From Spirochaetales bacterium (lineage in GTDB: Bacteria; Spirochaetota; Spirochaetia; UBA9216), in contig JAEKNX010000020.1 in assembly GCA_016839055.1 (NCBI GenBank), forward strand, positions 1 through 64,000: a stretch of DNA of 64,000 nucleotides, given 5' to 3'. Position 1 is the first letter of the stretch, and each line of letters starts with the position of its first letter. The position numbers and the translations under genes were made by a program. This document shows positions 57,124 to 62,032 of the stretch, one piece after another. The notes beneath the pieces are model-generated. The model worked only from the letters and a program-made list of their open reading frames with translations. It had not been told where the DNA came from and made no database searches.

Positions 57124-57193
57124 AATTTTAATATATTTTTAAATAAAAAATCCTATCGTCAAAATATAGAATAAAGCCAATAAGGGATGAATT

Positions 57194-58732
57194 ATGAGCG
57201 ACGTACTATTGAAGAATAAAGACGATTTAAAAAAAGCATCCGAGTTTAAAAATAATCTTAGTAGCAACTTCATCGAATTAAATCAAACTTTTCAGATTAT
57301 AATAATGTTTCAGAAGGAATATTTAAAATCTACCGCCGGAATACAGAACCTTATTAATTCATCATATTCAGATTTGAAAGCTGTAAATGGAAATGCTGAA
57401 GAAGTAGTGAATCTTGTTAACAAGTCGTCAAAAATAATTCATAATAATATCAATTCTTCAAAAAATAATATTACCGCAATGACAGGCGCCGCGGAATCGG
57501 TGGATAAGCTTGACGCGGGCTTTAACAACATTCAGAATGTTTTCACCGCATTGGCCGACTCGATAAAAACCATTGTTGAGCGGATAGATGTAATTGAGGA
57601 CATTTCGGAGCTTACAAACCTGCTTGCTCTTAATGCGGCCATTGAAGCCGCCAGAGCAGGGACGGCAGGCAAGGGGTTTCAGGTTGTCGCTAAAGAGATA
57701 AGGAACCTCGCGGACCGCAGCCGGACAAATACCAGCGATATTACAGTAATTCTCAATGCACTTAATAAGAAACTTTTCGATGCCAAGATTTTCCTTGGTG
57801 AATATGAAAGGCTTCAGGATGAAGTACTCGAGAATATCAGTACTACCAGTAGTAGTCTTGTAAGTTCAACCGATGAGCTGGAGAAGATCGATACCGAGAT
57901 CGGCTCAATAAACCGGCTTGTCGGAGAGCAGGCCCAGAGTACCTCATCATTGCTGTCATCGCTCGATGATGTCCACAGAACGAGTGAGTTTACAATAATG
58001 AACGCACCTTTCATTGACAAGGCAGTGGATGTCTATAAGAAATCAAATGATGTATGTCTGGCTGACCTCGAGAAGATGGGGCAGCTTTTCAGCAGATCTG
58101 AGCACAACTTATCCGGGGTCACCGAAACGACTACCGGACAGACTATTAAAATAGGCCATGATATAGCATATCCGCCATGGACCAGCATCAAGGACGGCAG
58201 GGCTTCCGGAATCAGTATAGAGCATACGGCAAAAATATTTAAAGGTTCCGATTATGAGCTTGATTTTGTAGGCGGGCAGTGGGCGGAACTCTATAATAGT
58301 TTGCTTAAGGGTGAGGTCGACTGCATTCTCAATGTAGGATGGCCTAATGAGTTCTTCGCGAATGAGCCGGTTGCCGCATCAAAACCCTATGAGAAATTTA
58401 AGATCAGAATTTTTTCAAAGGATCATACTGCCGTCCAGGCCTCTTCTTTCAGCGGAAAGAGGATTGCTGTACAGAAGGGCTCATTTGCCGGAGACATCGT
58501 TGCCAGTCTCGGGTGTGAACCCGTTGTTTTTGAGAATGATATTCAGGGAATGGTTCAGCTCCTGTGGGACAATGTTGACGGTATCGCGACTGAAGAGCGG
58601 GTAGGTAAGTATATCTCCGAGAATCTCTTCATGAACGCGATAAGGCCTGTTACAGAGGTTATTTCATCTCTGGACGTAGTTTATCTCATGCGTAAGGGTT
58701 CGGACGTCATCAGCGCCATTTTTGAGTCGTGA
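57194..58732 (+). CDS. Soluble chemoreceptor signalling domain fused to a solute-binding domain
   Basis: A 512-residue protein with an unusual order. The N-terminal half (about 1-290) is a helical methyl-accepting chemotaxis signalling domain with the hallmark [19 protein letters not shown] and [16 protein letters not shown]. The C-terminal half (about 315-510) is a type 3 solute-binding domain, with [20 protein letters not shown] and VDCILNVGW. No signal peptide or membrane segment is visible at either end, so the protein should be cytoplasmic. It could sense an intracellular amino acid and signal to CheA. Not adjacent to other che genes. Confidence 0.86.
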
Positions 58733-60298: not shown

Positions 60299-62032
60299 TT
60301 AGCTGATGATAGCTATTAGATCGCCCTTGAGAACGCTGTCTCCGGGTTTAACATCGATTGATGCTAGTGTTCCGGCTACTGTAGCGGGAATATCAAGTTC
60401 CATCTTCATTGATTCAACCACTACTACGGTTTCGCCGTAAGCTACAGCCTCACCTGCGTTTTTAATGACCCTGATAACTGTTCCCGGAAGCTGTGCTTCG
60501 AGTCTGGTTGCGCCGGCTGCTGCCGGCACTGGGGCCGCGGGAGCCGCTGCTACGGCGGGAGCAGCTGGAGCGGGAGCCGCGGGTGCTGGAGCGGGAGCCG
60601 CGGGTGCGGAAGCCGCTGGAGCTGCTGCATCGCTGTTTTTTCTAACCATGACGGTAGCATTGCCCAGTAGGTAGGTAATTCCCTTTTCCATACAGGTAGC
60701 CGCAATAAAAACATTCTCGTCGGTAACAGGAAGTCCGGCATCGGTTAAAAGTTTTGTCGCTGGAGTAATTCCCTTGGTCGGATCAGCATCATTAAGATCT
60801 ACTGCGGGAGTTGTTGTCGGCTCAAGACCCATTTTCTCACGACAGAGATCAATTATTTCCTGGTTCGGTTTAACAGGGGTTTTGCCAAAGTAGCCTAGAA
60901 CCATCTTTCCGTAACCTTCGGCAATCCTCGTCCAGGGACCGAAGAAGACGTTATTGAAAGCCTGCTGGAAGTAGAACTGGGAAACCGGGGTAACCGAGGT
61001 TCCGAATCCGCCCTTTTCTACAACTTCACCCATGGCCGCAATGACTTCAGGGAACCGGTGCAGGCAGTTGGTGTCACGCATCATCTGGGTATTAGCAGTC
61101 AAGGCTCCGCCGGGCATAGGTGAGAACGGAATAAGAGGCTCAACCCTCTCGGACTCCGGCGGCATAAAGTAGTCTTTCATGCAGTCCTTGAACACTTCTT
61201 CAGCCTTTATTACCTTATTAATATCAATACCGAGATCGTACTCGGTGCCTCTGAGGGCATGCCACATTGTAATTACGTCAGGCTGACATGTTCCGCCGCT
61301 CACTGGGGCCAGAGAGAGGTCAATCTGATCTGCTCCTGCATCGAGTGCAGCCTTATATCCAAGGACGGAGATTCCAGCTGTTTCATGGGAATGAAAAACA
61401 ATCCTGGTTTTCTTTCCGAGGACCTTTCTTGCTTTTTTAATAGTATCATAGACCTTGCTTGGAACGGCTGTGCCTGAAGCATCCTTGAAACATACAGATT
61501 CAAAGGGGATTCCGGCATTAAGAATGTCTTTGAGCACCTTGATGTAGAAATCAGAGGTGTGGGCGCCAGTGCATCCCGGAGGAAGTTCCATCAGGGTGAC
61601 ACAGACCTCGTGTCTGAGTCCTGCCTCATGAATAGCGCGGCCGCTGTCGATGAGGTTGTTAACATCATTGAGTGCGTCAAAGTTCCTGATTGTGGAAATA
61701 CCGTGTTTCTTGAACAACTTGGCATGGAGATTGATAATATCTCTCGGTTGTGAGTCGAGACCTACTACATTTATTCCTCTGGCGAGAGTCTGCAGGTCGG
61801 CATTCGGACCGGCGGCCTGTCTGAAAGCGTCCGTCATATCGAAGGCATTTTCATTACAATAGAAAAACAGGGACTGGAATCTGGCTCCGCCCCCCGCCTC
61901 GAAATGGGTCATCCCGGCATCCACACAGGCTTCAACTGCGGGTAGGAAATCAGGTGTGAAAACTCTGGCTCCGTAGGCAGATTGGAATCCGTCGCGAAAA
62001 GCGGTAACCATGAAATCTACTCGTTTTTTCAT
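60299..62032 (-). CDS. Biotin-dependent carboxyltransferase (OadA / pyruvate carboxylase B type)
   Basis: A 577-residue protein. The carboxyltransferase TIM-barrel (about 5-300) shows TAFRDGFQS, FEAGGGARFQ and HSHETAG (metal ligands), a conserved DUF-like PYC/OADA domain follows (about 310-470), then an Ala/Pro-rich linker, and the C-terminal biotinyl domain has VVESMKMELD with K543 as the biotin site. It is the alpha subunit of oxaloacetate decarboxylase, or the B subunit of a two-subunit pyruvate carboxylase. No partner (oadB, oadG or biotin carboxylase) lies in this window, so the reaction is open. Confidence 0.88.
   Translation of the reverse strand: MKKRVDFMVTAFRDGFQSAYGARVFTPDFLPAVEACVDAGMTHFEAGGGARFQSLFFYCNENAFDMTDAFRQAAGPNADLQTLARGINVVGLDSQPRDIINLHAKLFKKHGISTIRNFDALNDVNNLIDSGRAIHEAGLRHEVCVTLMELPPGCTGAHTSDFYIKVLKDILNAGIPFESVCFKDASGTAVPSKVYDTIKKARKVLGKKTRIVFHSHETAGISVLGYKAALDAGADQIDLSLAPVSGGTCQPDVITMWHALRGTEYDLGIDINKVIKAEEVFKDCMKDYFMPPESERVEPLIPFSPMPGGALTANTQMMRDTNCLHRFPEVIAAMGEVVEKGGFGTSVTPVSQFYFQQAFNNVFFGPWTRIAEGYGKMVLGYFGKTPVKPNQEIIDLCREKMGLEPTTTPAVDLNDADPTKGITPATKLLTDAGLPVTDENVFIAATCMEKGITYLLGNATVMVRKNSDAAAPAASAPAAPAPAPAAPAPAAPAVAAAPAAPVPAAAGATRLEAQLPGTVIRVIKNAGEAVAYGETVVVVESMKMELDIPATVAGTLASIDVKPGDSVLKGDLIAIIS

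Follow-up and report, generated by a model that had tools for sequence, protein, structure and literature searches.

The open reading frame at 57194–58732 on the plus strand of the window, by which we mean the whole 64,000-nt stretch of spirochaete DNA analysed here, raises the question whether a chemoreceptor can carry a solute-binding domain behind its signalling domain and sense with it inside the cell. The ORF call, Pfam and homologues define it as the gene of a predicted soluble MCP-SBP3 receptor of 512 amino acids plus stop. An HMM search against Pfam placed MCPsignal (PF00015) at residues 109–260 (E 2e-30, 106.3 bits against a curated cut-off of 34.6), followed by SBP_bac_3 (PF00497) at residues 318–468 (E 2.8e-9, 37.2 bits against a curated cut-off of 26.4), and a PDB profile search was consistent with an MCP hairpin and an SBP3 domain in the two halves. 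The order proposed by an earlier sequence-only reading of this DNA, signalling region N-terminal and solute-binding domain C-terminal, is thereby borne out.

The same reading had seen no transmembrane helix or signal peptide. Membrane segments and leaders were judged by Kyte-Doolittle hydropathy (19-residue mean), and no hydrophobic segment, be it transmembrane or leader, was found in the window receptor, its highest 19-residue mean being 1.11. With the same script clear membrane segments were noted in 12 of 13 paralogous MCPs of this genome, and each of the remaining SBP3 genes examined there has a hydrophobic segment or leader. Direct reading of the sequence upstream of the start revealed a probable ribosome-binding site, AAGGGA, at 57182–57187 (+), 6 nt 5' of the ATG, and an in-frame TGA stop at 57188–57190 (+), two codons 5' of the ATG, which rules out an N-terminal extension with a signal peptide. 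The SBP_bac_3 fold and profile are thus present, but the protein is not an extracytoplasmic binding protein of the exported type. Because export signals are absent, we infer a cytoplasmic location, and the reversed domain order together with the SBP3 fold of the C-terminal half (see below) agrees with the cytoplasmic receptor that had been hypothesised.

Run at E ≤ 1e-25 against a sample of 395 genomes from the class Spirochaetia, a profile of the receptor's SBP domain gave matches in 42 of them, which belong to 15 families and to 26 of the 133 genera, with one copy per genome except for one genome with two. Six of seven sampled genomes of the order, including the window's own, carry the receptor, and close relatives (57–60% identity) come from three spirochaete genomes, one of them that of Candidatus Thalassospirochaeta sargassi. 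The two copies of the exceptional relative (L201 in G001:C41 and L200 in G001:C25) share 49% and 33% identity with the window protein, and the divergent one retains the cleft motifs. The architecture was checked in 32 distinct proteins, two of which are cut at contig ends: the signalling tip lies ahead of the SBP domain in all of them, and a credible membrane segment is lacking throughout, an N-terminal hydropathy peak in L171 being in our reading the product of an over-long start choice. MCPsignal was matched in 16 of 16 family members and SBP_bac_3 in 15 of 16 at E ≤ 0.001. In the phylum sample the E-value of the SBP profile falls from 1e-45 to 7.5e-16, the latter belonging to an ordinary lipoprotein-like SBP of 280 amino acids, and with this gap in scores the receptor's SBP subfamily was found solely in the MCP-SBP architecture. 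Genome contigs were scanned for this architecture with peptide patterns of close relatives; viral contigs, scanned with the full-length alignment, gave generic MCP matches only. A tree of the signalling domains together with the MCPs of the window's genome is compatible with the family having arisen just once (1 change, in 48% of bootstrap trees), several of its branches being long.

As the window is drawn from a 43-contig assembly, a wrong start, a missed membrane segment or a chance fusion by misassembly might be thought to have produced the unusual gene. We rejected such an artefact, whose probability we regard as negligible, on the grounds of the upstream stop, the shared architecture of more than 30 distinct homologues and the PEPCK-containing local gene order, which recurs in related genomes. 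Homologues with the same domain order had been looked for as a check on the earlier reading, and their existence excludes a fusion by assembly accident. With the same gene occurring across much of the class, the sequences argue for a real, conserved soluble chemoreceptor and not a one-off fusion.

From a 16-sequence alignment of the receptor family AlphaFold2 returned a model with a mean pLDDT of 84.5, which comprises two long antiparallel helices, a linker and a full two-lobed SBP3 fold. The N-terminal arm of the signalling coiled coil is modelled as a helix of residues 2–155 (57197–57658; this and all following features of the gene lie on the plus strand) and the C-terminal arm as a helix of residues 160–307 (57671–58114), while the hairpin tip that would contact the kinase and CheW (residues 134–176, 57593–57721) is the best-conserved stretch of the signalling half. 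A linker of 9 residues (308–316, 58115–58141; pLDDT <50 at 309–314) leads to the type-3 SBP domain of the periplasmic-binding-protein type II class, set by Pfam, PDB profile and Foldseek at residues 317–511 (58142–58726). Foldseek comparison of this half with the PDB yielded many type-3 SBPs at a probability of 1.00 and a target TM mostly of 0.6–0.7, the histidine-kinase sensor domain 3h7m being among the top matches. Both the type II binding-protein fold of the model and the Foldseek agreement support the view that the C-terminal half is an SBP3 domain and not another fold. Since the hairpin arms are nearly equal in length, the N-terminus and the SBP domain would both come to lie at the end distal to the kinase-binding tip, although the pTM of 0.61 makes the relative position of hairpin and SBP domain uncertain. 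The earlier description of the receptor as the reverse of a normal one therefore holds for the order in sequence but not for the geometry, as in the model the reversed order still puts the sensor domain at the usual end, where sensors normally are.

The antiparallel two-helix hairpin comes with a conserved tip that is kept in all 32 proteins and retains the residues that receptors such as Tsr have in common at the CheA/CheW interface. Mean column conservation amounts to 0.71 in the tip, 0.54–0.56 in the SBP domain and 0.36–0.41 in the stalk; judged by sequence, two parts are constrained, the kinase-contacting tip and the ligand cleft. The strict methylation-site consensus is absent in the window protein and in 27 of 32 family members, and the window receptor does not end in a CheR-type pentapeptide; the transmembrane MCP paralogues of the same genome show at least one methylation consensus in 12 of 12 cases and such a pentapeptide end in 8 of 12. 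With consensus sites and CheR-tethering pentapeptide both missing, standard adaptation is unlikely, and the receptor probably does not adapt through CheR/CheB methylation at standard sites. The lack of consensus sites lowers the claim to the label 'methyl-accepting' but not to the label 'chemoreceptor', as soluble receptors such as TlpD may be devoid of methylation sites. The receptor is an orphan, with no chemotaxis gene adjoining it. In the genome we counted 16 CheW-domain matches, several of them in CheA-size frames, and 37 MCPsignal matches. An MCP (L007) of the che cluster on contig 3 can be aligned without gaps to the signalling half of the window receptor over 204 residues, which may serve as a weak pointer to the receptor's CheA. 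This cluster (L202:1706-12629, G000:C3, about 132.7–143.6 kb) comprises, besides the aligned MCP, CheR-TPR, CheB, two CheW, a hybrid kinase and a CheA that carries a receiver domain, and has the look of a chemosensory system with an alternative function.

More than 20 residues of the SBP domain are invariant among the 32 proteins (H322, D323, Y326, P327, P328, W329, N380, G382, W383, P384, N385, Q427, S430, N448, T466 and others), mostly within cleft motifs, whose placement in the cleft was made by alignment and not from a bound structure. The first motif, HDIAYPPW (58157–58180), contains the six invariant positions from H322 to W329, and the second consists of NVGWPN (residues 380–385) and then F388 (58331–58357). 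The third, QKGS (58472–58483), includes Q427 and S430, and the fourth is the pair T466-E467 (58589–58594), position 467 being E in 25 and D in 7 of the 32 proteins.

An amino acid had been named in the sequence-only reading as a possible ligand, and the closest solved sequence relatives are indeed mostly amino-acid SBPs (AncQR, ArtJ, cystine, LAO), a closeness that partly reflects which SBP3s have structures. In binding proteins of the LAO/HisJ type Arg77 holds the ligand carboxylate and an Asp binds the amino group. By alignment, in LAO/HisJ numbering, Y326 corresponds to Tyr14, F388 to Arg77 and E467 to Asp161. The acid for the amino group is thus kept as E or D at position 467 in all 32 family members, but the carboxylate-binding Arg is absent at position 388 in all of them (F in 21, L in 10, I in 1), and no conserved basic residue was found across 385–390 in the 32 proteins. 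The suggestion of an amino acid is weakened by this replacement, the retained acid speaking in its favour, and we consider it unlikely that the domain binds an intracellular alpha-amino acid.

Loss of the pocket Arg would also be in line with an SBP domain that binds no small molecule at all and acts as a module for dimerisation, array packing or partner docking, the more so as signalling proteins are known to re-use binding-protein domains. The residues that are invariant throughout the class sit in the cleft motifs HDxxYPPW, NxGWPN, QxGS and T[ED], however, which mere packing would not require to be conserved, and such a role appears rather improbable to us. Nor do we give much weight to an enzyme, of which cyclohexadienyl dehydratase, itself derived from SBP3s, would be the precedent: the top profile matches include AncCDT-1 and cyclohexadienyl dehydratase (E 1.7e-18 and 7e-12) and the cleft holds an invariant His-Asp pair (H322 and D323), yet fusion with a signalling hairpin favours sensing, so that catalysis seems very improbable. 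We thus keep to a ligand-binding sensor whose predicted pocket is conserved but departs from the one seen in standard amino-acid binders. The aromatic side chains and acids combined in this pocket suggest that a cationic or aromatic metabolite would suit it better, and the ligand is probably one compound common to the family and probably no ordinary alpha-amino acid in the standard binding mode.

Neighbouring genes give no firm clue to this ligand, as their order is conserved just among close relatives. The receptor lies near genes for PEPCK, a histidine phosphatase, a methyltransferase and an OadA-like carboxylase subunit, and within the window's group PEPCK is kept upstream and the OadA-like gene downstream. 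The OadA-like subunit (60299–62032, minus strand), with an Ala/Pro-rich linker and a biotin domain, scores 276 bits against TIGR01108, far under the cut-off of 756.5, and may be a distinct carboxyltransferase. In three f15 relatives (L184:259-4064, L190:3-3117, L191:6722-7843) a thiamine-type ABC transporter is located upstream on the opposite strand, its binding protein matching TIGR01254 with E 1e-83 to 1e-92. No transporter of this type was seen near the receptor in the other families examined, and its proximity is a weak pointer to the ligand.

Taken together, we regard it as likely that the gene encodes a soluble chemoreceptor in which the SBP3 domain, by closing on a small cytoplasmic metabolite, alters the coiled coil and with it CheA activity, the ligand probably being other than an ordinary alpha-amino acid and standard methylation adaptation probably being absent. 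This proposal starts from the observed domain order, the lack of membrane segments, the predicted fold, the conservation pattern and the missing methylation consensus; to these we add, by inference, dimerisation, coupling to CheA, a cytoplasmic ligand and its chemistry. Two receptor chains would pair into the usual four-helix coiled coil, the tip of which would bind CheW and CheA, and the SBP3 domain would be held in the cytoplasm at the opposite end of the hairpin. Closure of the two lobes on the metabolite would then make the coiled coil pack differently and thereby change CheA activity, so that swimming, or another CheA output, would follow the internal state of the cell. That we are dealing with a spirochaete receptor family which extends across the class and has so far gone undescribed, and in which an intracellular SBP3 pocket re-tooled away from amino acids tunes chemotaxis to one metabolite, is put forward tentatively, with a chance slightly below even. 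If true, this would clearly exemplify how a 'periplasmic' binding-protein domain can serve chemotaxis as a built-in intracellular metabolite sensor. As the SBP half, with about 200 residues, is a soluble domain in its own right, simple binding screens can be used to look for its ligand, and MCP-SBP3 receptors could show, with no membrane involved, how closure of the flytrap acts on a receptor coiled coil.

Chemoreceptors with a C-terminal ligand-binding domain, which like the window receptor have their ligand domain after the signalling domain, are listed from Pfam and described as a poorly characterised subfamily in PMC7390727, which counts no fewer than 17 LBD types among them, most commonly CZB. 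The solved structure of H. pylori TlpD illustrates how a C-terminal sensor drives the hairpin and that receptors of this sort can do without methylation sites (PMC12871147). TlpD and other CZB receptors share with the window receptor a soluble nature, a hairpin followed by a C-terminal sensor and the absence of canonical methylation sites, and TlpD reads an internal cue (PMC12871147), as the window receptor probably does likewise. They differ in that the CZB sensor is a zinc-binding helical bundle and the window receptor's a two-lobed type-3 SBP, and in that TlpD has an N-terminal PAS domain where the model of the window receptor shows a continuous helix. In other bacteria cytoplasmic receptors form sandwiched arrays with the ligand domains presumed mid-array (PMC3964821), and the Pfam profiles of SBPs pick up sensor domains in cytosolic signalling proteins as well (PMC9602780).

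SBP3 histidine kinases of the BvgS type (3h7m; several are encoded in the same genome) likewise use SBP3 as a built-in sensor, but in the own-genome examples the SBP is N-terminal and exported, with a membrane helix before the output. A second membrane-free MCP of 283 amino acids is encoded in the same genome at L203:1513-2364 (within L203:1513-3143, G000:C33, about 334.0–335.6 kb) and adjoins a gene of the ODP-family beta-lactamase fold (PF19583, E 6e-71). This pair resembles the oxygen-sensing ODP/MCP pair of spirochaetes; such a soluble MCP is membrane-free like the window receptor, the sensor being apparently a separate protein there and fused here.

The literature searched, with partial coverage, yielded no account of an MCP that carries an SBP3 domain at its C-terminus. 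An uncommon receptor class, as had been suspected, is accordingly upheld for the combination of MCP and SBP3 but not for the position of the ligand domain, since C-terminal ligand domains are already described (PMC7390727; TlpD, PMC12871147). The best reading is probably, by analogy, a soluble chemoreceptor that reports a cytoplasmic metabolite and works like TlpD; a C-terminal sensor is its known part, the SBP3 Venus-flytrap in that place its new one.
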